This document shows, piece after piece, positions 28,721 to 46,713 of a stretch of 64,000 bases of DNA; within the stretch, counting starts at the first letter, position 1, and each line of letters starts with the position of its first letter. The notes below the pieces were generated by a model. That model was not told where the DNA came from. It worked only from the letters and a program-made list of their open reading frames with translations, and searched no databases. Both the position numbers and the translations under genes were made by a program. The DNA is from Aquificaceae bacterium (lineage in GTDB: Bacteria; Aquificota; Aquificia; Aquificales; Aquificaceae): the NCBI GenBank assembly GCA_037481935.1, contig JBBFKQ010000001.1, positions 142,741 through 206,740 of the forward strand. The letters run 5' to 3'.

Positions 28721-28729
28721 GGTAGAGCT

Positions 28730-29731
28730 ATGAAGAGAATAAGGCTTTCTGAAGGTGGTGGTGGAGAAGAGAGCTGGAGGCTCATAAGGGAGCTCTTTCT
28801 CAGATACTTTGAAAACCCAGTGCTCTCAGCCCTTGAGGATTCAGCCCTTCTCCAGCTCAGTTCAAAGGTTGCCTTTACCACGGATGCCTTTACCGTAAAG
28901 CCCCTATTCTTCAGGGGCGGGGACATAGGAAAGCTGGCGGTGGCGGGCACTGTAAACGACCTTGCGGTGATGGGTGCAAAGCCCCTCTACCTCTCTGCCA
29001 GCTTTATCATAGAGGAGGGCTTTCCCTACGAAGACCTCCAGAGGATAGTGGAGAGCATGGCACAGACTGCAAAGGAGGCGGGTGTGCTCATAGTCGCAGG
29101 GGATACAAAGGTGGTCCCCTCTGGTCAGGCTGACGGACTTTTTATAACCACCTCGGGCATAGGCAGGGTGGTATACGATGGACTCTCCTGCAGGAGTGTG
29201 AAAGAAGGCGACGCCATAATCCTTTCCGGACCCATAGGAGACCACGGTGCCTGCGTGCTGGCACAGAGGGAAGGCTTTGACTTTGGAGAAAACTTCGGAA
29301 GCGACTGCCAGCCCCTGTGGGACCTTGTGGAGCACCTTCTCAGAAGTGGTGTCGAAGTTCATGCCATGAGAGACCCCACGAGGGGCGGGCTATCCGCAGT
29401 GCTTCACGAGTGGGCTAATGCTTCGGGCGTATCCTTTCTGGTGCAGGAGGACAGCATCCCCGTAAGACAGGAGGTTCTGGGTATATGCGAATTTCTTGGA
29501 CTTGAGCCCTACCACCTTGCATGCGAGGGAAGGATTGTGGTGGCAGTAAGGGGTGAGGATGCGGAAAGGGCTCTTGAGGTTCTCAGAGAACACCCGAAGG
29601 GTAGGGAGGCAAGTCTTATAGGCTATGCGGTAAGACCCGAGGGCAGACCTTCAGTTTTTCTCAGGACTTCCTACGGAACCAGGAGGTTTCTTGAGCCACC
29701 CGCCGGCGAGCTCCTGCCAAGGATTTGCTGA
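28730..29731 (+). CDS. hypE: hydrogenase maturation protein HypE
   Basis: A 333-aa PurM-like protein ending in the conserved LPRIC, whose cysteine carries the thiocyanate made from HypF carbamoyl. FTTDAFTVKPLFFRGGDIGKLAV, MGAKPLYLSASFIIEEG and AMRDPTRGGLSAVLHEWA are typical. It donates cyanide ligands to iron on HypC-HypD. The stop overlaps the hypA start (TGATG). Confidence 0.95.
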   Translation: MKRIRLSEGGGGEESWRLIRELFLRYFENPVLSALEDSALLQLSSKVAFTTDAFTVKPLFFRGGDIGKLAVAGTVNDLAVMGAKPLYLSASFIIEEGFPYEDLQRIVESMAQTAKEAGVLIVAGDTKVVPSGQADGLFITTSGIGRVVYDGLSCRSVKEGDAIILSGPIGDHGACVLAQREGFDFGENFGSDCQPLWDLVEHLLRSGVEVHAMRDPTRGGLSAVLHEWANASGVSFLVQEDSIPVRQEVLGICEFLGLEPYHLACEGRIVVAVRGEDAERALEVLREHPKGREASLIGYAVRPEGRPSVFLRTSYGTRRFLEPPAGELLPRIC

Positions 29732-30087
29732 TGCACGAGTTTTCTATAGTGCAGAGCCTTCTGGAGCTTATTCATGAGCAGGTGAGAATGCACTCCGCAA
29801 AGAGGGTTGTGAAGGTTGAGATAGTTGCCGGCGTGCTCTCGGGAGTGGAGCCCCATCTTCTGCAGATTGCCTTTGAGACCTTCAGGCAGGGGACACCCGC
29901 AGAGGACGCAGAGCTCCTTATAGAGGTTGAAAAGCTGAAAATCTACTGTAGGGACTGCGAAGGGGAGTTTGAAAAGGACGAGCTCAATGCCCTGTGCCCC
30001 CGCTGTGGAGGACTGAACACGGAAATAAGGGGTGGAAGGGAGCTACTGCTCAAGAGCCTTGAGCTGGAGGTAGATTCAAACCCATGA
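29731..30087 (+). CDS. hypA: hydrogenase maturation nickel chaperone HypA
   Basis: A 118-aa protein starting MHEFSIVQSL, in which H2 is the nickel ligand. A zinc site is formed by CRDC and CPRC (about residues 71-90). It delivers nickel with HypB. An upstream in-frame TTG is less likely than the ATG at 29731, which gives the essential N-terminal Met-His. The stop overlaps the hypF start by 4 nt. Confidence 0.95.
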   Translation: MHEFSIVQSLLELIHEQVRMHSAKRVVKVEIVAGVLSGVEPHLLQIAFETFRQGTPAEDAELLIEVEKLKIYCRDCEGEFEKDELNALCPRCGGLNTEIRGGRELLLKSLELEVDSNP

Positions 30088-32336
30088 CCCGGAGGCTCTC
30101 CGTGAGGATAAAAGGTGCAGTGCAGGGTGTGGGCTTCAGACCCTTTGTCTACAGATTGGCTAAGGAGCTTGGGCTTTGTGGTTTTGTGATAAACGATTCA
30201 AGAGGCGTGAGCGCAGAACTGGAGGGTCCAAAGGAAAAGCTTGAAGAGTTTCTGCTCAGACTCAGCAGGGAAAAGCCTCCCCTTGCACGCATACACTCGG
30301 TGGACCTTCAGTTCACAGAACCCGTGGGATACAGGGACTTTGAAATAAGGGAGAGTTCAGAGGAGGGTCAGAAAGAGGTCTTCCTTCTTCCCGACATGGC
30401 AACCTGCGAAGACTGCCTCAGGGAGCTCTTTGATCCCTCAGACAGAAGATACCTCTATCCCTTCATAAACTGCACCAACTGCGGACCGAGGTTCACCATA
30501 GTAGAAAAGCTTCCCTACGATAGGCCCAACACCACCATGAAGGTCTTCCAGATGTGTCCTCAGTGTAGCAGAGAATACCACGACCCCTCAGACAGACGCT
30601 TTCACGCCCAGCCAAACGCATGCCCCCTTTGTGGTCCGTGGCTGAGCCTTTACTCTTCAGAGGGCGAGCTCCTGGCGGAGAGGGAAGAGGCACTCAGGCT
30701 GAGCCTTGAACTCCTTAGGGAGGGTAGAATACTTGCGGTCAAGGGTATAGGGGGCTTTCATCTTATGTGCGATGCTACAAAAGAAGAAACGGTGAGCCTT
30801 CTGAGGGAGAGAAAAAGAAGAAGGGAAAAGCCCTTTGCGGTAATGTTCAGAGACCTGGAGCAGGTTCTCCAGTATGCAGAGCCTTCTGAGCTTGAGCTTG
30901 CCCTTCTTATGCTTCCAGAGAGGCCCATAGTGCTCATAAACTGCAGAGGTGGGCTTGCCCCCTCCGTGGCACCGGGTCTCAGGAGGGTTGGAGCCTTTCT
31001 ACCATACACGCCCCTTCATTACCTGATACTCAGAGGGCTTGACTTTCCGGTAGTTGCCACCTCGGGCAACCTTTCGGACGAACCCATAGTCAAGGAGAAC
31101 CAGGAAGCCCTTGAGAGGCTGTCCAGCCTTGCGGACTTTCTGCTTCTTCACAACAGGGACATAAGGAGAAGGTGTGACGATTCGGTGGTAAAGGTCATAG
31201 GTGGACTGCCCACACCCATAAGGCGTTCACGTGGCTATGCACCCATGCCCATAACACTGCCCGCTGAGCTCAAAAGAAGAGTCCTCGCAGTAGGTGGAAT
31301 GCTGAAAAACACCTTTGCTCTGGGCTTTGCAGACAGGGTAATTCTGAGTCAGCACGTGGGAGACGTGGAAAACCTTGAGACCCTTATGTCCTTTGAGGAG
31401 ATGGTCTATGATATGATGGGGCTCTACGACTTTGAGCCAGAGGTGGTTGTGTGCGACCTCCACCCGAGGTATGAGACCACAAGATGGGCGGAGGATTTTG
31501 CCAGGGGCAGGGGCATACCCCTTCTGAAGCTACAGCATCACTTTGCCCACATTCTTTCCTGTATGGCGGAGAACGCTCTGGAAGGAGAAGTGCTTGGCAT
31601 AGCATGGGATGGCACAGGATACGGAGAGGATGGAACCCTCTGGGGTGGTGAGTTTCTGCACTGCAATTACAGCTCCTACAGGAGACTCTTTCACTTCAGA
31701 CCCTTCAGGCTAATCGGTGGAGAAAAGGCTATAAAAGAGCCAAGAAGGGTTGCCCTTTCAATCCTTTTTGAGCTCTTTGGAGAGAAAGCCTTTGAGTTTG
31801 ACCTGCCCACGCTGAAAGCTTTTGAAGAAAGAGAGCTGAAAAACCTTTACACTGCATGGAGGTCCGGCGTGAACTCACCCCTGACGAGCTCCGCAGGAAG
31901 GCTCTTTGACGGGGTTGCGTCCCTTCTTGGACTGAGGCATAAAGTATCCTACGAGGGGCAGGCAAGTATGATGTTAGAAGACCTCTTCAGACCTGAAGTG
32001 GAAGACTTTTACCCCTTTGAAATTCTGGAAAACTCCGTTGATTGGAGACCCACAATCACGGCACTTCTTGAAGACAGGGAGAAGGAAAAGGCTCCTTCAA
32101 GGTTCATAAACACCCTTGCCAGAATCTGTCTTGAAGTTGCCCGCAGGGCTCAAAGGGATAAGGTCTGCCTCTCTGGGGGTGTGATGCAGAACGACCCGCT
32201 GGTAAGCAGGATAAAGGAGCTTTTGGGGAAGGAAGGCTTTAAGGTTTACACTCATCAGAAAGTGCCACCCAACGACGGGGGACTGAGCCTCGGTCAGGCG
32301 GTTTATGGGGGTTTGATTAACTTGAAGTTGGCTTGA
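30084..32336 (+). CDS. hypF: carbamoyltransferase HypF
   Basis: A 750-aa protein with an acylphosphatase domain (about 1-90, GAVQGVGFRPFVYRLA), two zinc fingers (CEDCLRELF ... CTNCGPRF, CPQCSREY ... CPLCGPW), a YrdC-like domain (about 200-380) and a Kae1-like carbamoyltransferase (about 390-750) with DLHPRYETTRWA, LQHHFAHILSCMAEN and LSGGVMQNDPL. It makes carbamoyl-AMP and passes the carbamoyl to the HypE cysteine. Last gene of the plus-strand operon; its 3' end overlaps that of the convergent HupH gene by 20 nt. Confidence 0.96.
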   Translation: MTRRLSVRIKGAVQGVGFRPFVYRLAKELGLCGFVINDSRGVSAELEGPKEKLEEFLLRLSREKPPLARIHSVDLQFTEPVGYRDFEIRESSEEGQKEVFLLPDMATCEDCLRELFDPSDRRYLYPFINCTNCGPRFTIVEKLPYDRPNTTMKVFQMCPQCSREYHDPSDRRFHAQPNACPLCGPWLSLYSSEGELLAEREEALRLSLELLREGRILAVKGIGGFHLMCDATKEETVSLLRERKRRREKPFAVMFRDLEQVLQYAEPSELELALLMLPERPIVLINCRGGLAPSVAPGLRRVGAFLPYTPLHYLILRGLDFPVVATSGNLSDEPIVKENQEALERLSSLADFLLLHNRDIRRRCDDSVVKVIGGLPTPIRRSRGYAPMPITLPAELKRRVLAVGGMLKNTFALGFADRVILSQHVGDVENLETLMSFEEMVYDMMGLYDFEPEVVVCDLHPRYETTRWAEDFARGRGIPLLKLQHHFAHILSCMAENALEGEVLGIAWDGTGYGEDGTLWGGEFLHCNYSSYRRLFHFRPFRLIGGEKAIKEPRRVALSILFELFGEKAFEFDLPTLKAFEERELKNLYTAWRSGVNSPLTSSAGRLFDGVASLLGLRHKVSYEGQASMMLEDLFRPEVEDFYPFEILENSVDWRPTITALLEDREKEKAPSRFINTLARICLEVARRAQRDKVCLSGGVMQNDPLVSRIKELLGKEGFKVYTHQKVPPNDGGLSLGQAVYGGLINLKLA

Positions 32337-32697
32337 TAAAACTCTCAACCCGCCCCCTGAGCACCTGTATTGATTCCTCCACATCCTCCCTCTGAGCCTT
32401 CGCAAGGGACGGAAAGTAGCACACCTCTATGGTCTCCAGTATGGGCTTGTTGTCCCTGTCGTAGAAGACCCCTATCCACACACCGCTTATGCCCGTCTCC
32501 CTCCACTCTACGGGCTGTGTATTTGAGGACAGACTTATCTTTACCTGACCTTCGCCAAGCACATCAAGCAGAACCTCCCTGTCCTCTTCCGACAGGGGCA
32601 GCTTGTTTATGTATATGATGTGCTCTTCACCCTTTTCGTAAAGGTCTTTGAGTGCTTGAAGCAGCTCGTTGAGTATGGCAGGGGCGTTCATAAGCAT
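32317..32697 (-). CDS. hupH: HupH/HyaF-like hydrogenase maturation protein (single domain)
   Basis: About 126 aa from the ATG at 32697, which has a GGAGG site 7 nt upstream; a longer frame from 32724 is possible. It matches the HupH/HyaF family, thought to help assemble iron-sulfur clusters or protect oxygen-tolerant hydrogenases. Enteric HyaF is about twice as long, so this is a one-domain form (C-terminal type: SGVWIGVFYDRDNKPILETIEVCYFP). It is the last gene of the hya operon and overlaps the HyaE-like gene. Confidence 0.75.
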   Translation of the reverse strand: MLMNAPAILNELLQALKDLYEKGEEHIIYINKLPLSEEDREVLLDVLGEGQVKISLSSNTQPVEWRETGISGVWIGVFYDRDNKPILETIEVCYFPSLAKAQREDVEESIQVLRGRVESFIKPTSS

Positions 32698-32996
32698 GAT
32701 AGAGCCTCCATATATTCGTTCCACGACTTTATGCCCTCAAGGACCCGCACCTCTTTGCCACCAGAAAAGAGCACAAGAGAGGGTAGTCTATATTTCCTTA
32801 GAATTTCTATGTTTTCATCGGCGTTTATGGAATAAAAGTCCTTCTCGGAGAAGACCTTCTGGAGCTCCGGCACCACCACATCCGTGTCAAATATTTCTCT
32901 GATGGTGTTCTTTTTAGCTTCAGACCTTATGTAGAGCACGAAGGTTTTTCCGGCTCTTATTAGTTCCTCAAACTCCTGCAGGTTCAACTCTCTCAT
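32688..32996 (-). CDS. hyaE: HyaE/HupG-like thioredoxin-fold chaperone
   Basis: A 102-aa thioredoxin-fold protein (FVLYIRSEAKKNTIREIF, DFYSINADENIEILRKYRLPSLVLFSGGKEVRVLEGI) without a CxxC active site, matching HyaE/HupG, proposed to bind the Tat signal of the hydrogenase small subunit before export. It lies between the protease and HupH genes, overlapping each, exactly the order of hya/hup operons. Confidence 0.8.
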   Translation of the reverse strand: MRELNLQEFEELIRAGKTFVLYIRSEAKKNTIREIFDTDVVVPELQKVFSEKDFYSINADENIEILRKYRLPSLVLFSGGKEVRVLEGIKSWNEYMEALSCL

Positions 32997-33459
32997 AGCT
33001 TACACCCCACTTCTCCAGCTCTTTAAGCACTCCAGAAACAAGCTCATCGAGCCTTGACTTTACAGTTTCTGAGAGCTCAAGGGATATGTCCAGGCTCTCA
33101 GGCTCCATGCCAAGGAGGACAATCTCCCTTGGTGCTCTTCCCAGCATCTGGGCAAGAGCGAGCACTTCCTGAACGCCAAGCTCGTGGGCAGAGACCTTTT
33201 TTCTGAAATAAGCCTTTACCTCCTCACCCTCAAACCTGTAAAGAGTGCCGGGGGCACAGCCCCCAAGGACAGCATCCACCAGCAAAAGCCTTTCAAAGCC
33301 TTCCATAAAGTAAAGAAGGTCCATGCCAAGTGTCCCACCATCCATAAGCTCCACCTCTGGGAAAAACCTGTAGTTTTTTCTGAGCTCTTCCACAACCCTC
33401 ACACCGAGCCCTTCGTCGGAAAGCAGTATGTTGCCAACGCCAAGCACGAGAGTTTTCAT
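32968..33459 (-). CDS. hyaD: hydrogenase maturation protease HyaD/HupD
   Basis: A 163-aa endopeptidase with the nickel-sensing residues of the family: E16 in LLSDEGLGVRVVEEL, an Asp in LLLVDAVLGG and His in SAHELGV. It cuts the C-terminal extension of the hydrogenase large subunit after the His of DPCxxCxxH once nickel is in place. Substrate is the large subunit at 34168-36072, the only one in the window with an extension. Confidence 0.95.
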   Translation of the reverse strand: MKTLVLGVGNILLSDEGLGVRVVEELRKNYRFFPEVELMDGGTLGMDLLYFMEGFERLLLVDAVLGGCAPGTLYRFEGEEVKAYFRKKVSAHELGVQEVLALAQMLGRAPREIVLLGMEPESLDISLELSETVKSRLDELVSGVLKELEKWGVSYERVEPAGV

Positions 33460-34157
33460 GTCACATCCTCCACATCCACAGGTGTCTCCTTGAAGTTTTT
33501 CATGCCGTTGAACATTGACGACACTTCGCCCTCCTTCTCTATCACATCAAACCTGACCACCATGTAAACATGAACTATCACAAAGAAAACTATAAGCCAT
33601 GCCACCCAGTGGTGCCACATGTGAACCATAAACTCACCGCCAAGGAGGGGAACAACCCATCCAAAGAGCCTCCCCCAGAAGCCATCGGGGTCAGATAGCC
33701 CATACATGGCAAAGCCTGTGATTATCATAAAGGCTATGGCTATGTAGAGGAGAAAATAGGCAAGCCTTGCAAGGGGATTTCTCACATAGGTTCTGTGCCA
33801 TGGCTTTATAAAGAGGTAATGAAGGAGCATCTCTACAACACCTTTCCAGAAATCAGACCTCCAGACTCTTGGTATAAAGAGCCTGTCTCCCTTATAGAAA
33901 AAGGCTATAAAAAGGCGGAAAAGGAAGGAAAAGAGAAGCACATAGCCTGCGGAAAAGTGGACAAATCTCACAAGGTCCATGGTCAGGTTGTGAGCGTAGG
34001 CGTAGGTTGCTTCATGTCCCACAGAGCCTATGAAGAAGGGATTTCCTATGTAGAGACCTGTGAGGAAGAGGACGGTTATTGACAGGAAGTTTACCCAGTG
34101 CCATATCCTCAGCGAGGGGCTGAAGATGTAAATCCTCTTTACCGTTTCCTCTTTCAT
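33456..34157 (-). CDS. hyaC: Ni/Fe-hydrogenase cytochrome b subunit
   Basis: A 233-aa membrane protein with four helices and heme-binding histidines in the first (SLRIWHWVNFLSITVLFLTG) and last (HMWHHWVAWLIVFFVIVHVYMVVRF) helix regions. It anchors the hydrogenase and passes electrons to the quinone pool. Follows the large subunit by 10 nt and overlaps the protease start (ATGA). Confidence 0.94.
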   Translation of the reverse strand: MKEETVKRIYIFSPSLRIWHWVNFLSITVLFLTGLYIGNPFFIGSVGHEATYAYAHNLTMDLVRFVHFSAGYVLLFSFLFRLFIAFFYKGDRLFIPRVWRSDFWKGVVEMLLHYLFIKPWHRTYVRNPLARLAYFLLYIAIAFMIITGFAMYGLSDPDGFWGRLFGWVVPLLGGEFMVHMWHHWVAWLIVFFVIVHVYMVVRFDVIEKEGEVSSMFNGMKNFKETPVDVEDVT

Positions 34158-34167
34158 GGCTTACCTC

Positions 34168-36072
34168 CTAAAAACACACTGGCTGTGAGCCCTGAACCCT
34201 TATCTCCACTATCTCCCTTCCTTCTGCGTCATACAGGTGCGTGGAGCAGGCAAGACAGGGGTCAAAGGAATGGATTCCTCTGAGGACTTCAAGGGGCTTG
34301 TTGACCACCTGCAGGGGTGTGTCCTTCATACACTCTTCAAAGGCACCCTGACCTCCCATGGGGTCCCTTGCTCCACCGTTCCATGTGGTGGGCACAACGC
34401 ACTGGTAGTTGGCTATCTTTCCGTCCTTTATGACAACCCAGTGTCCAAGGGCACCCCTTGGAGCGTCGGTAAGACCTATACCCTTTGCCTCTCTGGGCCA
34501 TGTGGAGGGGTCCCACTTTTCGGTGTTTGCCACGGAGGTATCCCCGGCCTTTATGTTGTCGTAGAGCTTTTTCATAAAGTAAAGGTTTGCGGCCACACCT
34601 ACCTGAGCCTCAAGACCCCTCGCCGCGGTTCTTCCCACCGTAGTGGGTAGCCACACATGGGGAGGCAAGTCAAGCACCTTTGAGACAAAGTCTATCTGTT
34701 TGACTATCATTTCATCCATCCAGCTGGGCTTTATATGCCCCTGTTTTACGCCCGTGTAGACCACTATATACCGGGCGAGAGGTCCCACCTCGCAAGGCTT
34801 TCCTCTCCACCTTGGAGACTTTATCCAGGAGTATTTGCCCTTCTCGTCAAGATACTTCCAGTGGGTCTTTGTGCCTTCCTTGGGTCCCGTGTAGTTGGGC
34901 TCCGTTATACCATCCCACGGGTGAAGCCCCTTCTTTTCGTCAGGATACTTATACCAGGAGTGTGCCACGTATTCCTGAATGACCTCTGGGTCTGCAAAGT
35001 CCTTACCTGCAAGTGGATAGAACTTGGCCCTTTCCACACCTTCAGCAAAGTCTTCCACCACGCCGTTGCAGTGGTAGATAACCTGCCTGTGATAGTCTCC
35101 GTTCTTTATTCCGCCGTAGGGCTCATCGGGAAACTCACCGTAGCCTATAACCCTCCTCTTGGCAAGACCACCCCCATAGGTCTGCCCCTTCTGAACGTAT
35201 ATATGTCCTATTGCCAGAAGGTCCACGAGATAGAAGAGGTTTACGGCCTCTGCCTGCGTGTAAATAGCATCCTCCACAACCGCAAGCCTTTCAGTGTTCA
35301 CGGGTGCATTCATATCGTTCAGAGATATGGAGCAGCTCATACCTCCCACTATGTAATGTGGGTGTGGGTTCTTTCCACCGAAGACCACCTGAGGGATAAA
35401 TATCTCCCTCTGCACATCCAGCATGTTCAGATAGTGAGCAACCGCCATCAGATGAACCTCTGGAGGAAGGAGTTTGTAGTCGGGGTGGTCCCACCAGTGG
35501 GCGGCGAATATGCCAAGCTGTCCGCTCTCCACTACCTTCTTTATCTTCTCCTGAAAGGCTCTGAAGTAGCCGGGCGTTGCCTTTGGAAACTTCCTCGGGT
35601 ATGCCCTCCTTCCAATAGGGTCAGGCATGAGCTCCGCCACGGCTCCATACTTTTCAAGAAGCTGGTTCTGCAAGACCGCAGTCTGCACGGGGTCTGCCTT
35701 GAGAGCCTCTATGGGTGAGACCCAGTCAAGGGCATGGAGATGATAAAAGTGCACCACATGGTCATGCACCTGAAGTGTTCCATACATGATGTTTCTTATG
35801 TAGTTGGCGTTCTTCGGTATCTTTATTTCAAGGGCATCTTCCACGGCCCTTACTGATGCGTGAGCATGTATGGAAGTGCATACACCGCATATTCTCTGGG
35901 CAAAAGCCCACGCGTCTCTCGGGTCTCTTCCTCTGAGGATGAGCTCAATGCCCCTCCACATGGTGCCGGAGGAAACTGCATCAACAACTTTGCCAGATTT
36001 TTCATCCACGATAAGCTCAATCCTCAGGTGTCCTTCAATCCTTGTTACTGGGTCTACAACTACCCTTGCCAT
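34168..36072 (-). CDS. hyaB: membrane-bound [NiFe] hydrogenase large subunit
   Basis: A 634-aa group 1 large subunit. L1 is RICGVCTSIHAHASVRA (about residues 61-77) and L2 DPCLACSTH (604-612), followed by a 22-residue extension to be removed after His612. Starts three bases after the small-subunit stop with AGGAGGTG. Together with hyaA it forms the H2-oxidising module facing the periplasm. Confidence 0.97.
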   Translation of the reverse strand: MARVVVDPVTRIEGHLRIELIVDEKSGKVVDAVSSGTMWRGIELILRGRDPRDAWAFAQRICGVCTSIHAHASVRAVEDALEIKIPKNANYIRNIMYGTLQVHDHVVHFYHLHALDWVSPIEALKADPVQTAVLQNQLLEKYGAVAELMPDPIGRRAYPRKFPKATPGYFRAFQEKIKKVVESGQLGIFAAHWWDHPDYKLLPPEVHLMAVAHYLNMLDVQREIFIPQVVFGGKNPHPHYIVGGMSCSISLNDMNAPVNTERLAVVEDAIYTQAEAVNLFYLVDLLAIGHIYVQKGQTYGGGLAKRRVIGYGEFPDEPYGGIKNGDYHRQVIYHCNGVVEDFAEGVERAKFYPLAGKDFADPEVIQEYVAHSWYKYPDEKKGLHPWDGITEPNYTGPKEGTKTHWKYLDEKGKYSWIKSPRWRGKPCEVGPLARYIVVYTGVKQGHIKPSWMDEMIVKQIDFVSKVLDLPPHVWLPTTVGRTAARGLEAQVGVAANLYFMKKLYDNIKAGDTSVANTEKWDPSTWPREAKGIGLTDAPRGALGHWVVIKDGKIANYQCVVPTTWNGGARDPMGGQGAFEECMKDTPLQVVNKPLEVLRGIHSFDPCLACSTHLYDAEGREIVEIRVQGSQPVCF

Positions 36073-36074
36073 GG

Positions 36075-37139
36075 TTATTCACCTCCTCTGTTAGGTTTTG
36101 ACCTTAGTTTTGATATGACTCCGTGGACAACTGCACCGGCCGCCGCAGCCGCCGCAACGGCCATACCCACCTTGTCGGCGTTGGCTTCTACGCTGGGGAC
36201 TGGTATGGTGGTGAGCCTATGGTAGAAGGGTCCGTTGTCCCAGAAGTTATCCTCAGAACAACCTATGCAACCGTGTCCTGCCTGTATGGGATAGGAAAGC
36301 CCATTATACCAGCGTATGTTTCCGCAGGAGTTGTAGGTGGTAGGTCCCCTGCATCCCACCTTGTAAAGACACCAGCCCTTTTTCGCCCCTTCGTCGTCAA
36401 ACCTTTCCACAAACTGCCCTGCGTTGAAGAAGGCTCTTCTATAGCAGGTATCGTGAATCCTGTTGCCGTAAAACTGTTTGGGTCTTCCCTGAGAGTCAAG
36501 GGGCGGAATAGAGTCAAAGAGCACAAGGTGCATGATGACCCCTGTCATCACCTCTGCGATAGGTGGACAGCCGGGCACCTTTATTATTGGCTTGCCTGTT
36601 ATAACCTTGTGTATGGGGACTGCGGTGGTTGGGTTGGGCTTTGCCGCCTGCACACAGCCCCAGCTGGCACAGGAGCCCCAGGCTATCACGGCCTTTGCAC
36701 CCTCTGCGGACTCCTTCAGATGCTTCAGGAAAGGCTCACCGTTCACGATACAGTACATGCCGTCTTCACCCAGGGGTGGGTTGCCCTCCACGGCCAGTAT
36801 GTAGTTGCCCCAGTATTTCTTGATTATCTCCTTCCTGTGTCTCTCAAGGTCTTCTCCTGCGGCTGCCGAAAGTGTGTCATCGTATTCAAGGGATATCATG
36901 CTCAGAACCACATCAGAAGCCAGAGGGGTGGCGGACCTAATAAAGGACTCAGAGCAACAGGTGCACTCAAGCCCATGTATCCATATGACGGGGACTCTCG
37001 GCTTTGTCTCCAAAGCTCTGACTACTTCCGGAATCATGGAAGGCGATAATCCCATAAGTCCCGTTATGGTGGTGGCAAATTTGAAAAAGTCCCTTCTGTT
37101 TACGCCGTGCCTTTTAAAGGTTTCCCAGAAGGTTTCCAT
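36075..37139 (-). CDS. hyaA: oxygen-tolerant membrane [NiFe] hydrogenase small subunit
   Basis: A 354-aa small subunit with a twin-arginine signal (NRRDFFKF, residues 14-21). The proximal cluster region has six cysteines in the pattern of oxygen-tolerant group 1d enzymes: C59, C61, C62 (ECTCCSES) and C157, C162 (GSCASWGC) plus the later GCPP cysteine. The two supernumerary ones (C61 and C162) let the [4Fe-3S] cluster give two electrons and repair oxidised active sites. A C-terminal hydrophobic helix (about 325-343) anchors it. I start at 37139, after GGAGGTG; a longer frame would run back through the promoter. Confidence 0.96.
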
Positions 37140-37154: not shown

Positions 37155-37168
37155 TGAATATTCATTCA
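37155..37168. promoter_or_regulatory. TGAAT-N4-ATTCA operator at hyaA
   Basis: TGAATATTCATTCA, 2 nt downstream of the -10 box of the hyaA promoter on the minus strand. Perfect half-sites. Confidence 0.72.
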
Positions 37169-37170
37169 AA

Positions 37171-37199
37171 AATATAACCTGTATCACATAAACAGTCAA
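37171..37199 (-). promoter_or_regulatory. promoter of the hyaA operon
   Basis: On the minus strand TTGACT (37194-37199), 17-nt spacer, TATATT (37171-37176). The -10 is identical to the hypB and hypC promoters. Confidence 0.78.
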
Positions 37200-37269
37200 G
37201 GAAAAAATACTTATAGGGTCTATAAGCGCTTCTAATCTTTATTACTTTTGATAAAAATGTAATAAAAAG

Positions 37270-37297
37270 TTGCCTGCAGGGTGAGTATGGCTATATT
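37270..37297 (+). promoter_or_regulatory. promoter of the hypC-hypD-hypX operon
   Basis: TTGCCT (37270-37275), 16-nt spacer, TATATT (37292-37297). Same layout as at hypB. Confidence 0.7.
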
Positions 37298-37302
37298 AAG
37301 GA

Positions 37303-37316
37303 TGAACGAGCATTCA
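37303..37316. promoter_or_regulatory. TGAAY-N4-ATTCA operator at hypC
   Basis: TGAACGAGCATTCA, 5 nt after the -10 box and next to AGGAGG. One mismatch in the left arm compared with the other three sites. Confidence 0.65.
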
Positions 37317-37326: not shown

Positions 37327-37581
37327 ATGTGCCTTTCTATCCCCTCAAAGGTGGTGGAGCTGAAAGAAGACAACACCGCGGTGGTTGAAACCTTTGGAGC
37401 AAGAAGGGTGGTATCCCTTGACCTTCTCCAGGAAGGGGTTTCCGTGGGCGACTGGGTTCTTGTGCATGTGGGCTTTGCCATACAGAAGCTGGATGAGGAA
37501 TACGCCCTTGAGAGCCTGAAGCTCTTTGAGCAGTTGCTGGAGGAGGAAGATGAAGCTCTTGGCGAACTTCAGGGAAGCTGA
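37327..37581 (+). CDS. hypC: hydrogenase maturation chaperone HypC
   Basis: An 84-aa protein beginning MCLSIPSKVV; C2 is the conserved cysteine that binds the iron precursor and the large subunit. RRVVSLDLL and GDWVLVHVGFAIQKLDEEYA are family signatures. It carries the Fe(CN)2CO group with HypD. It overlaps hypD by 32 nt. Confidence 0.95.
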   Translation: MCLSIPSKVVELKEDNTAVVETFGARRVVSLDLLQEGVSVGDWVLVHVGFAIQKLDEEYALESLKLFEQLLEEEDEALGELQGS

Positions 37582-38671
37582 GGCGGTAAGGAAGCTTGAA
37601 AAGAGCATAAAGAGTGCGGTGGAAAGGCTTGGAAAGACTGTAAGAATCATGGAGTTTTGCGGGGGGCACACGCATACCATAGTAAAGCATGGTATAGACC
37701 AGCTTCTGGAAGGCTACGTAAAGTTCATCCACGGTCCGGGCTGTCCTGTGTGCGTTCTGCCCATGCAGAGGGTGGACCTCGCCCTTGAGTTGGCACGCAG
37801 AGAGAACCTCATACTCTGCACTTATGGAGATGTGCTCAGGGTCCCGGGCTCCAAGAGAAAAAGCCTCCTTGACCTGAGGGCGGAGGGGAAAGATGTGAGG
37901 ATGGTCTATTCCTGTCTTGATGCTCTCAGGATAGCACAAGAAAATCCCCAGAAGGAGGTCGTCTTCTTTGCCATAGGCTTTGAAACCACCACCCCCCAGA
38001 CCGCAGTGCTCATAAAAAAGGCTAAGGAGCTGGGACTGAGGAACCTTTCCGTGGTCTCAAACCACGTGATAACACCGGCTGCAATACAGCACATTCTGAA
38101 TGCACCTGAGGTGAGAGAATACGGGAAGGTGGAATTAGACGGCTTTGTGGGACCAGGTCATGTAAGCGTCATAATTGGAACAAAGCCCTACGAATACTTT
38201 GCAGAGGAATTTTTAAAGCCTGTGGTCATATCGGGCTTTGAGCCCCTTGACCTTATGCAGGCGGTTTACATGCTGGTAAGGCAGATGGGGGAAAGAAGGG
38301 CTCAGGTGGAAAACCAGTATACCAGAGCGGTAAGCAGGGAAGGAAACCTGAAGGCTCAGTTGCTCGTGGCTGAGGTTTTTGAATTGAGAAAGGAGTTTGA
38401 GTGGAGAGGTCTTGGAAAGGTTCCCTACAGCGCCCTGAGGATAAACTCCCGATACGAGGATTTTGATGCGGAAAAAAGGTTTGAGGTTGAGCTTCCAGAG
38501 CCCAGGGAACATCCCGCCTGTATATGCGGAAAGGTTATAAGAGGCGTAGCAGAGCCTACAGATTGCAAGCTCTTTGGAAGTGTATGCACTCCCTCAAACC
38601 CTCTCGGCTCCTGTATGGTATCCTCAGAAGGTGCATGCAACGCCTACTATAGATATAGAGGAATAGTATGA
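37550..38671 (+). CDS. hypD: hydrogenase maturation protein HypD
   Basis: About 373 aa from the ATG at 37550 (GAGGAGGAAG precedes it). Signatures are FCGGHTHTIVKHG, GPGCPVCVLP, GFETTTPQTA, SNHVITPAAIQ and the FeS-cluster cysteines near the C-terminus (CICGKV, CKLFGSVCTPSNPLGSC). It is the scaffold on which the Fe(CN)2CO unit is built. The stop overlaps the hypX start (ATGA). Confidence 0.95.
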   Translation: MKLLANFREAEAVRKLEKSIKSAVERLGKTVRIMEFCGGHTHTIVKHGIDQLLEGYVKFIHGPGCPVCVLPMQRVDLALELARRENLILCTYGDVLRVPGSKRKSLLDLRAEGKDVRMVYSCLDALRIAQENPQKEVVFFAIGFETTTPQTAVLIKKAKELGLRNLSVVSNHVITPAAIQHILNAPEVREYGKVELDGFVGPGHVSVIIGTKPYEYFAEEFLKPVVISGFEPLDLMQAVYMLVRQMGERRAQVENQYTRAVSREGNLKAQLLVAEVFELRKEFEWRGLGKVPYSALRINSRYEDFDAEKRFEVELPEPREHPACICGKVIRGVAEPTDCKLFGSVCTPSNPLGSCMVSSEGACNAYYRYRGIV

Positions 38672-40374
38672 GGGTATTACTTCTGTGTCATCGCTTTAAC
38701 TCCCTTTCTCAGCGGTTCTACTGCGAGCTTTCCGAGGCAGGACATGAGGTATCTGTGGAGCTTGATGTGCATCCAGAGCTCATGATAGAAGCGGTTGAGC
38801 TCTTTAGGCCAGACCTTATAATTGCCCCCTTTCTGAAGAGGAAAATACCGGAAGAAATCTGGCAGAATTACACCACTCTAATAGTTCACCCCGGACCCCC
38901 GGGAGACAGGGGACCCAGTGCCCTTGACTGGGCAATCCTAACGGGAGAGAAAGAATGGGGCGTATGTATGCTTTCGGCGGTTGAGGAATACGATGCGGGA
39001 GACCTGTGGGCTTTCAGAAGCTTTCCCATGAGGATGGCAAGGAAGTCAAGCCTGTATAGGAGGGAAGTAACGGAGGGTGCCGTAGAATGTCTGTGGGAGG
39101 TGGTGGAAAGCCTTGAGAGTGGAATGGTAAGAAGGAAACCACAGGGAGGTGGGCATTTCAGACCTGCCCCTGAGAGAAGCCTCAGGATGGTGGACTGGAA
39201 TAGGGATAGCACGGCGGAAGTTCTTAAAAAGGTTTACTCGGGAGATGGTCAGCCCGGTGCCAAAGCCCTTATAGAGGGAGAGGAATACTACCTCTTTGAC
39301 GCACATCCTGAAGGCTATCTCAAAGGAAAGCCTGGCGAGCTTATAGCAAGGAGGGATGAGGCAGTATGTATAGGGACTCTGGATGGGGCAGTATGGGTTG
39401 GCTATCTGAGAAGAAGGGAAAGGCAGAGTATAAAACTGCCGGCGACAAGGGTTCTTCCAGAGAACACCCTTGAGAGACTGAGGGAGGAGGAGATAAGACC
39501 TTGGGAGGAGGTGGATTTTCCCACATACAGGGAAATAACCTATAGAGAGGAAGAGGGTATAGCTTGCGTTGAATTCAATTTTTACAACGGTGCCATGTCT
39601 ACAGAACAGTGCAACAGGCTTCTGGAGGTGGTAAGATACGCAAAAATAAGGCCCGTAAAGGCTGTTGTGCTTCTGGGTGGTGAGGACTTTTTCTCCAACG
39701 GCATGAACCTCAACACCATAGAAGCCTCAGAGAGCCCTGCAGAGGAATCCTGGAGGAACATAAACGCCATGGATGACCTGTGCGAGGAGATACTCACAAC
39801 GCTTGACAGGTTGACAGTGGCGGGCATAAGGGGCAATGCTGGAGCGGGTGGTGTGTTTCTTGCTCTCACCTGCGACCTTGTGTTTGCAAGAAAGGGAGTT
39901 GTGCTCAACCCTCACTACAAGAACATAGGTAATCTTTACGGCTCTGAGTTCTGGACCTATACGCTTCCAAAGAGAGTTGGCTGGGAAAGGGGAAGGGAGA
40001 TAATGGAAAACCGCATGCCCATAAGCTCTGAAAGGGCTATGGGGATAGGTCTCATTGATGGCGTGTTCGGAAGGACGCCTGAGGACTTTACCCAGGGGCT
40101 GAAGGGCTTTTTAAAGAGCTTTGTGAACTCTAAAGACTTTGACAGGTTTCTAAAGGAGAAAAGAGAAAAGAGACTTTCAGATTGGAGCAAAAAGCCACTC
40201 AAGACATACAGGGAAGAGGAGCTGGAAAGGATGAGGCTCAACTTCTACGGTTTTGACACAAGCTACCACATAGCACGGTATTACTTTGTCAGAAGGTTTC
40301 TGCCCTTCAGAACGCCTCCCTACCTTGCGGTGCACAGAAGACTAAGCTTTCAGAGCCCTCCACAGGTTTTCTGA
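38668..40374 (+). CDS. hypX: HypX, carbon monoxide-forming hydrogenase maturation factor
   Basis: A 568-aa protein: N-terminal formyl-transferase-like part (about 1-280, with TLIVHPGPPGDRGPSALDWA) and a C-terminal enoyl-CoA hydratase-like part (about 290-568, with GNAGAGGVFLALTCDLVFA). HypX makes CO from formyl-tetrahydrofolate by way of formyl-CoA for the active-site iron; the Aquifex protein has been studied structurally. It is found in organisms that mature hydrogenase under oxygen, in accord with the oxygen-tolerant enzyme next door. Confidence 0.92.
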   Translation: MRVLLLCHRFNSLSQRFYCELSEAGHEVSVELDVHPELMIEAVELFRPDLIIAPFLKRKIPEEIWQNYTTLIVHPGPPGDRGPSALDWAILTGEKEWGVCMLSAVEEYDAGDLWAFRSFPMRMARKSSLYRREVTEGAVECLWEVVESLESGMVRRKPQGGGHFRPAPERSLRMVDWNRDSTAEVLKKVYSGDGQPGAKALIEGEEYYLFDAHPEGYLKGKPGELIARRDEAVCIGTLDGAVWVGYLRRRERQSIKLPATRVLPENTLERLREEEIRPWEEVDFPTYREITYREEEGIACVEFNFYNGAMSTEQCNRLLEVVRYAKIRPVKAVVLLGGEDFFSNGMNLNTIEASESPAEESWRNINAMDDLCEEILTTLDRLTVAGIRGNAGAGGVFLALTCDLVFARKGVVLNPHYKNIGNLYGSEFWTYTLPKRVGWERGREIMENRMPISSERAMGIGLIDGVFGRTPEDFTQGLKGFLKSFVNSKDFDRFLKEKREKRLSDWSKKPLKTYREEELERMRLNFYGFDTSYHIARYYFVRRFLPFRTPPYLAVHRRLSFQSPPQVF

Positions 40375-40935
40375 AACCTCATCCACATAGTCCATAAGCG
40401 GTCTGTTAAGAAGTCCCTCCGTATGTAGGAAGACCATGCCCCCGAGGGGTCCCATTATGGTGGTAAAGGCAGGATAGAAGCTCTGGTTTCTGAGTTCCCC
40501 CCTCTCCACGCCATCGCTCAGAAAGACCATTATCTCCGTAATGACGCTTGCCACACAGGCAAAGCCCTCACATCCCCCGCTGAAAACCTCCCTGTTTACA
40601 AGGAAGACCCTGAGAAAGTAGTTTATGAGCTCGGGCTCCTCAAGGGCTATTTCAAAAAAACTTCTCACAAGAAGCTCCAGCTTTTCCCGAAAGCTTACCT
40701 CCGCCTCGTTTACCCTCCTGAGTCTTTCCCCCACCCAGTCGGATACCGTCATCATAATTTCCTTTGCAAGCTCTTCCTTTGATTCAAAGTAGTTATACAG
40801 GTTTCCAACGCTCATACCCACCGCCTGGGCTATGTCTGGCATGGTGGTGTTGTAATATCCCTTTTCAGAAAACAGCCTGCAGGCAGTCCTTATTATCTCA
40901 AGCCTTTTCTGCTCCTTCAGGCTCTGCCTTTTCAT
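40342..40935 (-). CDS. TetR/AcrR family transcriptional regulator
   Basis: About 197 aa with an N-terminal helix-turn-helix (about residues 10-55: ACRLFSEKGYYNTTMPDIA, VGMSVGNLYNYFESKEELA) and a ligand-binding C-terminal domain with cysteines in SGGCEGFACVASV. I start at 40935 (MKRQSLKEQKRLEII), the usual TetR beginning; a longer frame to 41058 runs into the HEPN gene. It converges on hypX (33-nt 3' overlap). TetR dimers bind short palindromes like TGAAT-N4-ATTCA, so it is my candidate regulator of the hydrogenase and nickel promoters. Confidence 0.88.
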   Translation of the reverse strand: MKRQSLKEQKRLEIIRTACRLFSEKGYYNTTMPDIAQAVGMSVGNLYNYFESKEELAKEIMMTVSDWVGERLRRVNEAEVSFREKLELLVRSFFEIALEEPELINYFLRVFLVNREVFSGGCEGFACVASVITEIMVFLSDGVERGELRNQSFYPAFTTIMGPLGGMVFLHTEGLLNRPLMDYVDEVSENLWRALKA

Positions 40936-41797: not shown

Positions 41798-42253
41798 ATG
41801 GAAAACATGAGGATAGCCTTCGTATGCACGGGCAATTCCGCAAGGAGCCAGATGGCGGAGGGCTTTGCCAGAAGGCTGGTAGAAACTCTTGGAATGAACT
41901 TTCAGGTATACTCCGCAGGTTCAGACCCGGCAGAGGAAATAAACCCCTTTGCTGTTCAGGTAATGAAGGAGAAGGGCATAGACATATCCTCCCAAAGACC
42001 CAAGGGGCTTGAAGCCATACCCTATCAGGAGCTGGACCTTGTTATAACCCTCTGCAACAGTGCAAGACAGACCTGTCCAGTCGTTCCTGGAGCCCAGATG
42101 ATTCACTGGGACCTTCCTGACCCTGCCGCATACAGAGGCTCTGAAGAGGAAAAGCTGGAGTTTTTCAGAAAAGTCAGGGATGAGATAGAGGAAAGGGTGT
42201 GGGACTGCCTTCAGAGCCTACAGCTCAGGCAGGGCAATTCTGCTAAGCTTTGA
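41798..42253 (+). CDS. arsC: arsenate reductase / low-molecular-weight phosphatase family protein
   Basis: A 151-aa protein with the CX5R loop CTGNSAR (about residues 10-16), an N-terminal [19 protein letters not shown] and [16 protein letters not shown] with the extra redox cysteines of thioredoxin-coupled arsenate reductases. The pattern [10 protein letters not shown] is typical for ArsC of this class. It converges on nikR with a 36-nt overlap. Confidence 0.85.
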
Positions 42254-42628
42254 GAGCTTTACACCTCTTAGACCTCCTATTTTTGTAGCCAGAAGCTCAA
42301 GCTCTCCCGCCCTTCCTCTGAGGATGATAACCTCAAGGCAGTTGTAGTGGTCTATGTGAACATGGGTGGAGCACAGCACATTTACATGATGCTCGTGCTG
42401 AAGCTCCAGAAGTCTGTGGGTCAGCTCCCTGTCGTGATGGTCGTAGACAAGGCTGAGAACACCTATGACCTCTTCGTTCTCTTCCCATTTTTCCTGAGAC
42501 AAAAGGTCTCTTATGAGGTCTCTGACCAGCTCAGACCTTGAAGCGTAGCCCTTCCTTATGACTCTTCTGTCCAGCTCCTCAAGAAGCCCCTCAGGAAGAG
42601 ATACGCAGAAGCGGGTTGTCTTTTCCAT
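42218..42628 (-). CDS. nikR: nickel-responsive regulator NikR
   Basis: A 136-aa regulator: ribbon-helix-helix N-terminus ([34 protein letters not shown]) and ACT-type nickel-binding domain with [26 protein letters not shown], containing the His3-Cys nickel site. Last gene of the nickel-import operon, so it is probably autoregulated with it. It represses nickel uptake when nickel is plentiful. Confidence 0.95.
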
Positions 42629-42643
42629 CTTCAGAAGATTTTA

Positions 42644-43408
42644 TCAGAAGCTGTGAAGATGCCAGTCGCCTTTACCCCTGTGTCTGTGCAAAAGCCCAGC
42701 CCTTAAAAGCCTTTCCCTGTCCCTGAGGAATTCTTCTACGCCCCCGTCGTATACAATTCCGTGGTCTTCACCGAGCACCACAAGCCTGCTACCCAGCTCG
42801 CCGGCAAGGCTGAGGTTGTGAGTGGAGGTTACAGTGGTGCAGGGAAGCTCCCACAGCAGGTCCACAAACCAGCCAGTGGTCTTTGGGTCAAGGTGAGCGG
42901 TTGGCTCATCAAGAAGAAGAACCTCTGGCTCAAGCACAAGAAGACAGGCAAGGCATAGCTTCTGCTTCTGCCCCGTGCTCAGCTCAAAGGGTGGTCTTTT
43001 CAAATGGGGTGTGAGCTCAAACCTGTCAGCCCAGTAAAGGACCCTCTCTCTGACAAGTCCCTCCTCCATCCCCAGCTGTCTAAGAGAAAAGGCAAGCTCA
43101 TCGTAAACTGTGGGATTAAAGAGCATGACATCGGGGTTCTGAAAGAGGAGAACCACCTCCCTTCTGAACTTCCTCCTGAATTCCCTGTCCTTAAAGACTT
43201 TTTCCTCAATTTTACTTCCCATGTAAAGATACTCTCCTCTCTGTGGAAATATGAGGGCATTCAGTAGCTTCAGAAGTGTGCTCTTGCCAGAGCCGTTTAT
43301 GCCCAGAAGGACCACCCTTTCTCCCTCCCCTACTCTGAAGTTTATGTCCTTCAGGGCGAGTCTGTCTTCGTAGCTAAAAGAGACATTTCTGAGCTCAATC
43401 AAGATCAA
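42644..43408 (-). CDS. nikO: nickel ECF transporter ATPase
   Basis: A 254-aa ABC ATPase: Walker A GINGSGKSTLLKLL, Q loop VLLFQNPDVMLF, signature LSTGQKQKLCLACLLVLEP, Walker B VLLLDEPTAHLDP, H loop VTSTHNLSLA. It belongs to the CbiO/NikO type and overlaps nikQ by 14 nt. Nickel rather than cobalt is indicated by nikR and the exported partners. Confidence 0.92.
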   Translation of the reverse strand: MILIELRNVSFSYEDRLALKDINFRVGEGERVVLLGINGSGKSTLLKLLNALIFPQRGEYLYMGSKIEEKVFKDREFRRKFRREVVLLFQNPDVMLFNPTVYDELAFSLRQLGMEEGLVRERVLYWADRFELTPHLKRPPFELSTGQKQKLCLACLLVLEPEVLLLDEPTAHLDPKTTGWFVDLLWELPCTTVTSTHNLSLAGELGSRLVVLGEDHGIVYDGGVEEFLRDRERLLRAGLLHRHRGKGDWHLHSF

Positions 43409-43943
43409 GCCCCCTTGACTTCATAGCCTCTGCCACCTCCTCTGAGTCTCTCAGAAACCTCTCAAAAAAGTATCCTCCAACACCCTCAGAAAACCTCACA
43501 AACTCTTTCCCCTTTATGCCCTCTGGACTTCTGCTTTTCAGAGCCTGCAGAAAGTCCAGAAAAAGCCTCCTGTAGAGAAGTATATAGCTGGATGAGAGCA
43601 CGAGGAGCTGTGAGAGGCTTCTTGAAAAGCTCAGTGCAGAATACAGGTTTATGCGGGAAAGAGCCAGAAGCGTAAGGAGCATTATGTCAAGCGCCCTCAG
43701 GGCAAGAAGGGAAAGGTAAGAGTAATGACCAGTCCACAGGGCGTATGGGACGGATATGAAAAGGGTGGTAAGCAGGGCAAGGGATATAGGCTTTACCCTC
43801 CTTCTGAGCCTCCTGCGTGAGGCTGAAGGCATGTGGGCAAGAAGGAGAAGGAAAAAGATAAAAAGCAGGTGCCCGGGGGAGCTGAGGGAAGAAACAAAGA
43901 CAACACCTGCCATATACAGGAATAGAAGCACTTTATCCTTCAA
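43395..43943 (-). CDS. nikQ: nickel ECF transporter membrane subunit (CbiQ/NikQ type)
   Basis: A 182-aa membrane protein with about five helices and the coupling motif ARG-like AEAMKSRGLDLD at its C-terminus, which contacts the ATPase. Shorter than usual CbiQ (about 230 aa). It overlaps nikM by 11 nt. Confidence 0.85.
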   Translation of the reverse strand: MKDKVLLFLYMAGVVFVSSLSSPGHLLFIFFLLLLAHMPSASRRRLRRRVKPISLALLTTLFISVPYALWTGHYSYLSLLALRALDIMLLTLLALSRINLYSALSFSRSLSQLLVLSSSYILLYRRLFLDFLQALKSRSPEGIKGKEFVRFSEGVGGYFFERFLRDSEEVAEAMKSRGLDLD

Positions 43944-44568
43944 GGTTTCTCCTCCTGAGAAGACCTACAACCGCCTGAGTTATAAGCCCCTCTACCACTG
44001 CAACTGGCAGGTGAGAAAGGGTTATGGCTGGAAGGGTTATTCCGAGAGGATAGGGGAAATAGAGGGCTCTGCCTGATGGGTCTGTGAAGAGGTAGGGGTG
44101 CACGCCCAGCAGAAGGGCTACAGAGAGGGCAGAAAGGAGGGTGGAGAAAAAGCCCGCAAGGAAGGGGGCATTGCTCTTTTTTGCAAAAAGTCTGTGGACT
44201 GCATAAGAGCTGAAGGCCCCCACAAAACCCATGGCAAGGGCGTTCACCGGGTATGTGGTTATGCCCCCATGGCCGAGCAAGACGGCCTGAAGCAGTAAAA
44301 CCAGACACATGCAGAGGTATGCAGTCCAGGGACCATACAGAAGGGCAAGGGGTGCAACGCCCACTCCGTGCACCGATGTTCCACCGGGAAGGGGAAAGGA
44401 GAGGGAGCTCAGGATAAAGGCAAAAGCAGAAAGAAGTGCAAGCCGTGGTATGCTCCTCTCGCTGAGCCTTTCCTTAAACTTTCTGAAGCCATACAGGGCA
44501 AGCCCCATTGACACGGCATAGGCTGGCACATAAACCTGTGGTGCAACAAAACCCTCCGGAATGTGCAT
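43933..44568 (-). CDS. nikM: nickel ECF transporter substrate-binding subunit (NikM)
   Basis: About 211 aa starting MHIPEGFVAPQVYV, where His2 is the key metal ligand and the usual MHIPDG is MHIPEG. PGGTSVHGVGVAPLALLYGPW and HGGITTYPVNALAMGFVGA are typical CbiM/NikM. I chose the ATG at 44568 because the N-terminal Met-His is essential; a longer frame exists but crosses the end of the outer-membrane gene. Two bases after that gene's stop. Confidence 0.9.
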   Translation of the reverse strand: MHIPEGFVAPQVYVPAYAVSMGLALYGFRKFKERLSERSIPRLALLSAFAFILSSLSFPLPGGTSVHGVGVAPLALLYGPWTAYLCMCLVLLLQAVLLGHGGITTYPVNALAMGFVGAFSSYAVHRLFAKKSNAPFLAGFFSTLLSALSVALLLGVHPYLFTDPSGRALYFPYPLGITLPAITLSHLPVAVVEGLITQAVVGLLRRRNLEG

Positions 44569-44570
44569 GG

Positions 44571-45575
44571 CTAAAAGATGAGGGAAAGGGTGATTATCAG
44601 CCTGTATTTTTCCTTTCCTTCCGCACCCTGTTGCTGGCTCTGCTGGTTGAGGTCCTTCCATAGGGGTAGCTTTACACCCGCTCCGAGGGAAGCCCTCCTG
44701 TAGTATAGCCTTCCGCCAAAGACCCCGTATACCACATCCCCTCCAGAGTCTTCCACACTGATCCCATTTTCCCTGTCCTTCTGAAGGTGAAGGTAGTTGA
44801 GCTCCGTAAGAAGGTCAAGCCTGAGGGACTTCTCCTGGCTTCTGAAAACCCTGTATACGAGCGCCGTGTTTGCCCTGAATTCGTCCCCGAACCTGTATCT
44901 GTCTCCCGTGTTGTATCGGTGCTCAAAGAACTTCAGGTAGCTTGCGTCAAAGACAAAGGTAAGCTCGGGTAGGTTGACCATCTGCTTCGTAGCGGTAAAT
45001 CCTGCGGTTATGGTGGGCTTTCCAAAGCCGGAAGCCATGTCAGGAGCAAACTCGCCCATATATCCCTTCCTGTTGGCATCACCCGTGGGCAGGCTGACGC
45101 CTCCGTAGAGGGTAAAATGCCAGTCCATCATGTCCTCAAGGCTCTCCCTCCTAGGTATAAGCCTCAAACCCCCATCGTATTTAAAGCCCAGCACCGCCAT
45201 TATGGATGGGTCTGCAAAGCCCCTGCTTGTAAAGCTCCTCTCGCCCCCATCTCTGAGCTCTTTCTTTACGTTGTATGGGGCAAAGACATACAGGGAAAGC
45301 CAGGACCTCAGACCGTAGCCTATACCCAGCATCCAGAAATCGGACCTGTCCTTCTGGTCTGGAAAGTCAGAAAAGCTGTATTTCCTCCACCTTACGCTGT
45401 CCAGCTTCGTGTAGAGTAGCCAGGAGCCCTCTGGCAGTGTGGCGGAGCTTGAACTCTCAAGGGGTGCACCGGGACCCTCGAGACCCACCGCACCAAGGGA
45501 CGCAACCCCGTGGTGGGCAAGGGAAAAACCTGCAAAGGATAGCAGTGCGATGAAAACTCTTTTCATCTTTTCCAC
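44571..45575 (-). CDS. outer-membrane beta-barrel protein of the nickel operon
   Basis: A 334-aa protein with signal peptide (about 1-20) and a mature N-terminus near HHGVASLGAVGLEGPG, then a barrel of the transporter (MetA-pathway-like) family. Proteins with this N-terminal block occur beside nickel/cobalt importers. It probably carries nickel across the outer membrane. The last strand ends LIITLSLIF. Confidence 0.75.
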   Translation of the reverse strand: MEKMKRVFIALLSFAGFSLAHHGVASLGAVGLEGPGAPLESSSSATLPEGSWLLYTKLDSVRWRKYSFSDFPDQKDRSDFWMLGIGYGLRSWLSLYVFAPYNVKKELRDGGERSFTSRGFADPSIMAVLGFKYDGGLRLIPRRESLEDMMDWHFTLYGGVSLPTGDANRKGYMGEFAPDMASGFGKPTITAGFTATKQMVNLPELTFVFDASYLKFFEHRYNTGDRYRFGDEFRANTALVYRVFRSQEKSLRLDLLTELNYLHLQKDRENGISVEDSGGDVVYGVFGGRLYYRRASLGAGVKLPLWKDLNQQSQQQGAEGKEKYRLIITLSLIF

Positions 45576-45976
45576 CTCCCAAAAATCAGACTTATGAGAC
45601 CAAAAATTCCCAGAAGGTATCCAAGTCCTGAAAGAACCCTTTTATAGCTCTCCGCTGGGCTGTGTCTCTGCTCTGGTCTGCCTGCCCTCAGGCTTAGTTC
45701 AAGCTCGGCACCGTGCCCGTCCTGAGAGCTTATTTTCAAAAGCCACAGCCCGTCCCTGTCTGGACAGAAAACCACCCTGCCGAGGGCATCGCTCCTGCCC
45801 CTCTGAAAGGGGACTCTGTCTCCCTTTCTGTAGACCTCATACTCTTCGTAGGAAAAGGCGGTTCCGTCCTGAAAGTAAAAGCGCACAAGGATGCAGTTGC
45901 CCTCGCTCCTAACTTCCTTTAAAAGCTCGTGAGAAAGGGACACAGAAAGCAGGACAAAGAGCAGTAAAAGGCTCAT
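45563..45976 (-). CDS. exported nickel-uptake auxiliary protein (NikL-like)
   Basis: A 137-aa protein with a signal peptide (about 1-15), a beta-sandwich domain (SYEEYEVYRKGDRVPFQRGRSD, GRVVFCPDRDGLWLLKI) and a C-terminal membrane helix (about 113-131). It resembles the NikL/NikN-type accessory subunits of ECF nickel transporters. Mature N-terminus begins HELLKE. It overlaps the DUF4198 gene by 4 nt and the outer-membrane gene by 13 nt. Confidence 0.65.
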   Translation of the reverse strand: MSLLLLFVLLSVSLSHELLKEVRSEGNCILVRFYFQDGTAFSYEEYEVYRKGDRVPFQRGRSDALGRVVFCPDRDGLWLLKISSQDGHGAELELSLRAGRPEQRHSPAESYKRVLSGLGYLLGIFGLISLIFGRWKR

Positions 45977-46650: not shown

Positions 46651-46690
46651 TCAGAGCTCCTTATTACAATTTTATCAAAAGTAATATTAA

Positions 46691-46704
46691 TGAATTTTCA
46701 TTCA
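46691..46704. promoter_or_regulatory. TGAAT-N4-ATTCA operator of the nickel operon
   Basis: TGAATTTTCATTCA, inside an imperfect 26-bp palindrome (AATAT and ATATT arms outside). It is between the nickel operon (minus) and the SRPBCC gene (plus); on the minus strand it lies between a TTGAAA -35-like and a TAATAT -10-like box. Confidence 0.65.
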
Positions 46705-46713
46705 TATTTCAAG

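Follow-up and report, generated by a model that had tools for sequence, protein, structure and literature searches.

The window analysed here, a stretch of 64,000 nucleotides from the genome of an Aquificaceae bacterium, holds hydrogenase, hydrogenase maturation and nickel uptake genes in four operons, as well as genes for two transcriptional regulators, a TetR-family protein and the nickel-responsive regulator NikR. Promoters were read from the sequence, and operators 1-4 are copies of a shared 14-bp palindrome. In order of position, the features are the following.

25798..25825, + strand: hypB promoter, TTGACT (25798-25803), 16 bp, TATATT (25820-25825)
25829..25842, + strand: operator 1, TGAATAAACATTCA, 10 nt 5' of the hypB start and 3 nt past the -10 box; matrix score 21.8
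25853..32336, + strand: operon 1, hypB, [NiFe] hydrogenase small and large subunits, hypE, hypA, hypF (ORFs, NCBIfam, Pfam)
32317..37139, - strand: operon 2, hyaA (small subunit), hyaB (large subunit), hyaC (cytochrome b), a hyaD-like maturation protease and two accessory ORFs (ORFs, NCBIfam, Pfam)
37155..37168, - strand: operator 2, TGAATGAATATTCA, 15 nt 5' of the hyaA start and 2 nt past the -10 box
37171..37199, - strand: hyaA promoter, TTGACT (37199-37194), 17 bp, TATATT (37176-37171)
37240..37264, no strand assigned: proposed NikR operator TATTAC-N13-GTAATA, between hyaA and hypC, upstream of both -35 boxes
37270..37297, + strand: hypC promoter, TTGCCT (37270-37275), 16 bp, TATATT (37292-37297)
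37303..37316, + strand: operator 3, TGAACGAGCATTCA, 5' of hypC and 5 nt past the -10 box
37327..40374, + strand: operon 3, hypC, hypD, hypX (ORFs, NCBIfam)
40342..40935, - strand: TetR-family regulator, proposed reader of operators 1-4 (Pfam TetR_N, 2.3e-18; co-occurrence with the operator)
42218..42628, - strand: NikR, nickel-responsive regulator (Pfam NikR_C, 1.2e-28; NCBIfam)
42218..46650, - strand: operon 4, NikK-like and NikL-like periplasmic proteins, outer-membrane-type protein, CbiM/NikM-type permease, NikQ-like protein, ATP-binding NikO, NikR (ORFs, Pfam, NCBIfam)
46662..46686, no strand assigned: proposed NikR operator TATTAC-N13-GTAATA, overlapping the nickel -10 box and extending just downstream
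46684..46712, - strand: nickel operon promoter, TTGAAA (46712-46707), 17 bp, TAATAT (46689-46684)
46691..46704, - strand: operator 4, TGAATGAAAATTCA, within the -35/-10 spacer of the nickel operon promoter

HypX was assigned by its formyltransferase and enoyl-CoA hydratase domains (NCBIfam), and the NikK, NikL and NikQ assignments are based on position and resemblance alone. The outer-membrane-type protein of the nickel operon (44571-45575, - strand) has a weak Phenol_MetA_deg match and is possibly an outer-membrane nickel channel. Elsewhere in the genome, a second hyaA-like gene (G000:C1:114247-115257, L074), 49% identical to the first, is not preceded by any operator and apparently lies outside the regulon.

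An earlier note on this DNA had placed the palindrome at 25829-25842, 37155-37168, 37303-37316 and 46691-46704, and at hypB, hypC and hyaA had described TTGACT/TTGCCT and TATATT boxes 16-17 bp apart, with the palindrome 2-5 nt past the -10 box; all of this was reproduced here. The note had also named random occurrence over the genome as the outcome that would speak against a regulon, and a genome-wide pattern search located the strict form TGAAY-N4-ATTCA at only four sites in 1.69 Mb, every one inside the window and at a hydrogen or nickel promoter. Counted by strand, the window holds seven matches against 0.28 expected, a number reached by none of 100 shuffles. The symmetric form TGAAYNNNNRTTCA has five genomic sites, the fifth within a 348-aa open reading frame, and a letter-reversed control pattern has four. 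The motif count is thus ordinary given the genome size, and it is the placement that is unusual: hypB, hyaA, hypC and the nickel operon each have one motif site 10-41 nt 5' of the start codon, and the chance of at least four of five random sites landing in four 100-bp promoters is ~2e-14. In a position-matrix scan, the four operators score 17-22 bits and nothing else in the window exceeds 5; these four sites contributed to the matrix, and a matrix made without the genus of the window still detects the sites in that genus. The refined consensus, aaTGAAT-N4-ATTCAtt, was derived from ~125 upstream matches, including some few that are coding or common to neighbouring genes.

At hypB, hypC and hyaA the palindrome covers the expected transcription start. 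The nickel operon differs from these three in that its palindrome occupies the 17 bp that separate TTGAAA from TAATAT rather than lying past the -10 box, and in relatives belonging to a second family the nickel site often likewise lies between TTGACA and TATAAT-like boxes. Since a protein bound at the start site or in the -35/-10 spacer would obstruct the polymerase, these positions imply repression.

Orthologues of the TetR protein are encoded in 60 of the 112 genomes of the order Aquificales (54-85% identical), and matches elsewhere in the phylum are only ~30% identical and look like paralogues. When the regions upstream of hya, hypB, hypD and the nickel permease gene were compared across genomes, exact sites at hya, hypB, hypCD or nik were present in 55 of the 58 genomes that have both TetR and such genes, versus 1 of 26 genomes lacking TetR (Fisher p = 5e-17, a value inflated by relatedness). 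Safer evidence is provided by contrasts within a genus, where sites were found in TetR-encoding versus TetR-free genomes as follows: g1, 9/9 versus 0/1; g2, 3/3 versus 0/4; g5, 4/4 versus 0/1; g12, 4/4 versus 0/1; g16, 1/1 versus 0/1; and g18, 9/9 versus 0/4. The main claim uses these genome-level counts, per-gene counts being inflated by shared matches, e.g., the hyaA/hypC intergenic region is counted twice. Five unrelated control palindromes were almost never present in the same upstream regions. The earlier expectation that the motif would be conserved among related Aquificales is thus borne out, with recurrence at the promoters of hya, hypB, hypC and nik in two families, and the choice of the TetR gene at 40342-40935 as the likeliest regulator is supported, since the motif tracks the TetR orthologue even within single genera. 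This gene very probably encodes the regulator of the motif-bearing genes.

The exceptions to this pattern are few. The single match in a TetR-free genome (G055) lies ~310 nt 5' of the permease gene, in what looks like coding sequence. A leave-genus-out matrix gave near-sites in three TetR-free genomes, i.e., G002, in which a tetR fragment is cut off at a contig end (90% identity across 29 residues), and G003 and G055, the assemblies of which are 82-87% complete. Conversely, two genomes with tetR (G071, G075) showed no recognisable site in the upstream regions examined, and a third without an exact match (G074) has a strong near-site 5' of its nickel gene.

The neighbourhood of tetR provides a further association with hydrogen metabolism. 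In 26 genomes the gene comes immediately after hypB in the same orientation, so that the hypB operator would there control tetR too; in 46 genomes its distance from hya, hypB or hypD is no more than 6 kb. An exact search and a matrix search of the genome of the window found no operator upstream of tetR itself, so autoregulation is not general. Only two TetR-encoding genomes (G057, G051) have no detectable hya, hypB or hypD, and in both tetR is interrupted by stops or truncated (decayed genes at L173 901-1479 and L167 901-1176, respectively). In the window, a HEPN and nucleotidyltransferase pair resembling a toxin-antitoxin system (40952-41766, - strand) lies directly upstream of tetR and is possibly cotranscribed with it.

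Beyond these promoters, 12 well-assembled TetR-encoding genomes contain 62 sites, of which 34 fall inside target promoters, at ~660 times the density elsewhere. Among the other 28, intergenic sites occur before hypX (G009), hypF (G079) and a nikK-like gene (G092), before hypC at a greater distance from hypD (G079, G082, G092), and before a further small-subunit gene of a [NiFe] hydrogenase (G029, G039, G046); many of the remaining non-target sites lie inside coding genes and appear chance-like. The extra small subunit (L264 480-1466 in G029, L273, L034) is accompanied by a conserved operator, TGAATGTCCATTCA, and a nearby palindrome, CGAACGATTGTTCG. G009 also has two operator-like sites 58 bp apart (L270 1363-1434), 5' of a 221-aa ferredoxin-type iron-sulphur protein that, judged by its sequence alone, resembles the beta subunit of molybdopterin reductases and may belong to a sulphur or polysulphide reductase. 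The sites at hypX, hypF and other hydrogenases elsewhere in the order, the tetR-hypB operon, and the presence of nikR with its own operator in the nickel operon had all been missed by the earlier note.

The sequence TATTAC-N13-GTAATA occurs exactly twice in the genome, at 37240-37264 and 46662-46686. It was found in 16 of 23 nik regions from genomes with NikR versus 1 of 19 from genomes without, as expected of a NikR-type repeat, and it has the same shape as the delta-proteobacterial NikR site, published as GTGTTAC-N13/14-GTAACAC (PMC545781). We therefore propose that this repeat is the putative operator of a NikR regulon that is separate from, and overlaps with, that of the TGAAT motif. The hyaA/hypC copy is present in five genomes of the genus of the window and, outside it, only in a genome without NikR (G021). 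Its position suggests that NikR may also control hydrogenase in this genus. NikR regulons are known to cover NikMQO-type nickel uptake and, in one of the species described, a hydrogenase (PMC545781). The window contains a NikR box of the same shape, whereas the TGAAT motif is shorter, does not depend on NikR and reaches both the structural and the maturation genes of hydrogenase.

Given that the TGAAT motif is common to nickel uptake and nickel enzyme genes, and that nikR lies inside the nickel operon, NikR itself might be thought to bind it, which would make this a plain nickel regulon. The distribution makes that reading extremely improbable: NikR is encoded in 32 of the 112 genomes, and the motif is found in 28 of 31 genomes that have TetR and no NikR but in none of the four with NikR and no TetR, while NikR has its distinct box, which tracks it at nik. 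Hardly better placed is a CRP/FNR-type protein, which the earlier note had offered as an alternative and which would turn the gene set into an anaerobic or energy-status regulon. The classical FNR box matches the 14-bp motif in length and in its 4-bp central spacing, and the genome encodes CRP/FNR proteins (2 matches), but HTH_Crp_2 proteins occur in 109 of the 112 genomes whether or not these carry the motif, whereas TetR does track the sites, and a motif over the start site fits a repressor rather than a class I or II activator; this reading was therefore rejected as very unlikely.

The direction of control and the identity of the reader may also be questioned with TetR itself in view. A minority of TetR-family members activate transcription, and at some genes the motif stands at a greater distance from the start, as in G063, where it is 103 nt 5' of hya, so that TetR might act as an activator, or as activator or repressor depending on the promoter. 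We consider this unlikely, as the majority of the sites cover part of the start region or of the -35/-10 spacer, and a protein sitting there would hinder the polymerase. Formally, another regulator that is inherited together with tetR could also read the motif. Repression by the TetR protein is the reading that we prefer, and it is highly likely that the product of 40342-40935 is a shared repressor of hydrogen-oxidation genes in Aquificales that binds TGAAY-N4-RTTCA.

The TetR protein comprises 197 aa and carries an N-terminal helix-turn-helix domain (Pfam PF00440, TetR_N, residues 14-60, E 2.3e-18, 66 bits versus a cut-off of 24), which places it in the TetR/AcrR family. It scores below every NCBIfam subfamily equivalog cut-off, the best being SACE_7040 (56.7 versus 250 bits), with FadR at 40 versus 200 bits, and no solved orthologue was found in the PDB, in which the best sequence match has an E value of 2e-13. 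Its AlphaFold model (pLDDT 86) is all-helical with a separate C-terminal ligand domain, i.e., a normal TetR fold, and its best PDB matches are TetR-family structures, nearest being BCE_2991 (4me9), PfmR and FadR, with a TM score of about 0.74-0.78. The recognition-helix region (41-50) hardly varies among 53 full-length orthologues, as would be expected for a fixed operator. All 53 also conserve two cysteines of the ligand domain, C122 and C127, which suggest that the protein may sense redox state or a metal; the loop that holds them is poorly placed by the model (114-122 <50). A CoA-ester ligand is a weaker alternative, considered because the nearest folds include acyl-CoA sensors.

The TetR/AcrR repressors FadR, PfmR, KstR2 and RutR share the TetR_N domain and the all-helical fold with the protein of the window, and a short palindromic operator over the promoter, as proposed here. 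They differ from it in that sequence identity is only about 20-24%, in the invariant cysteine pair of the Aquificales protein, and in the genes controlled, which belong to lipid or drug functions rather than to hydrogenase and nickel. B. subtilis FadR is an acyl-CoA sensor of fatty-acid genes, and its 18-bp operator has a wider half-site spacing than the motif described here. We take that operator to be TGAATGANTANTCATTCA, with a TGAAT half-site like that of the window, and regard the likeness as a lead only. HoxA/HupR, which work with a sensor hydrogenase, and FNR/ArcA are known to regulate the structural and the maturation genes of hydrogenase together; these are NtrC-type response regulators or global regulators, whereas a dedicated TetR-type protein is proposed here. 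In the open-licence literature, no published description of the TGAAT regulon and no named transcriptional regulator of hydrogenase in Aquificales were found.

In the proposed mechanism, a TetR dimer would bind TGAAY-N4-RTTCA over the transcription start or in the -35/-10 spacer, and would thereby block RNA polymerase at the promoters of hydrogenase, maturation (hypB-F, hypX) and nickel-uptake genes. A signal received at the ligand domain would lift repression, with redox state or a metal as the leading guess because C122 and C127 are invariant. NikR, acting via its own operator, may subject nik and the hyaA/hypC intergenic region to an additional control by nickel. A bolder version, which we hold only tentatively and consider rather less likely to be right than wrong, is that a dedicated TetR-type hydrogen repressor ancestral to most Aquificales senses redox state, oxygen or a metal via its Cys-X4-Cys pair and switches the whole hydrogen-oxidation programme, gated by NikR according to nickel.

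The heat-loving Aquificales form a deep-branching lineage, sustained for the most part by hydrogen. The analysis resolves the control of the same genes into two overlapping parts, one by TetR and one by NikR. It names the gene, defines the operator exactly and lists targets across dozens of genomes, so that the switching on and off of hydrogen use in this order becomes directly testable.
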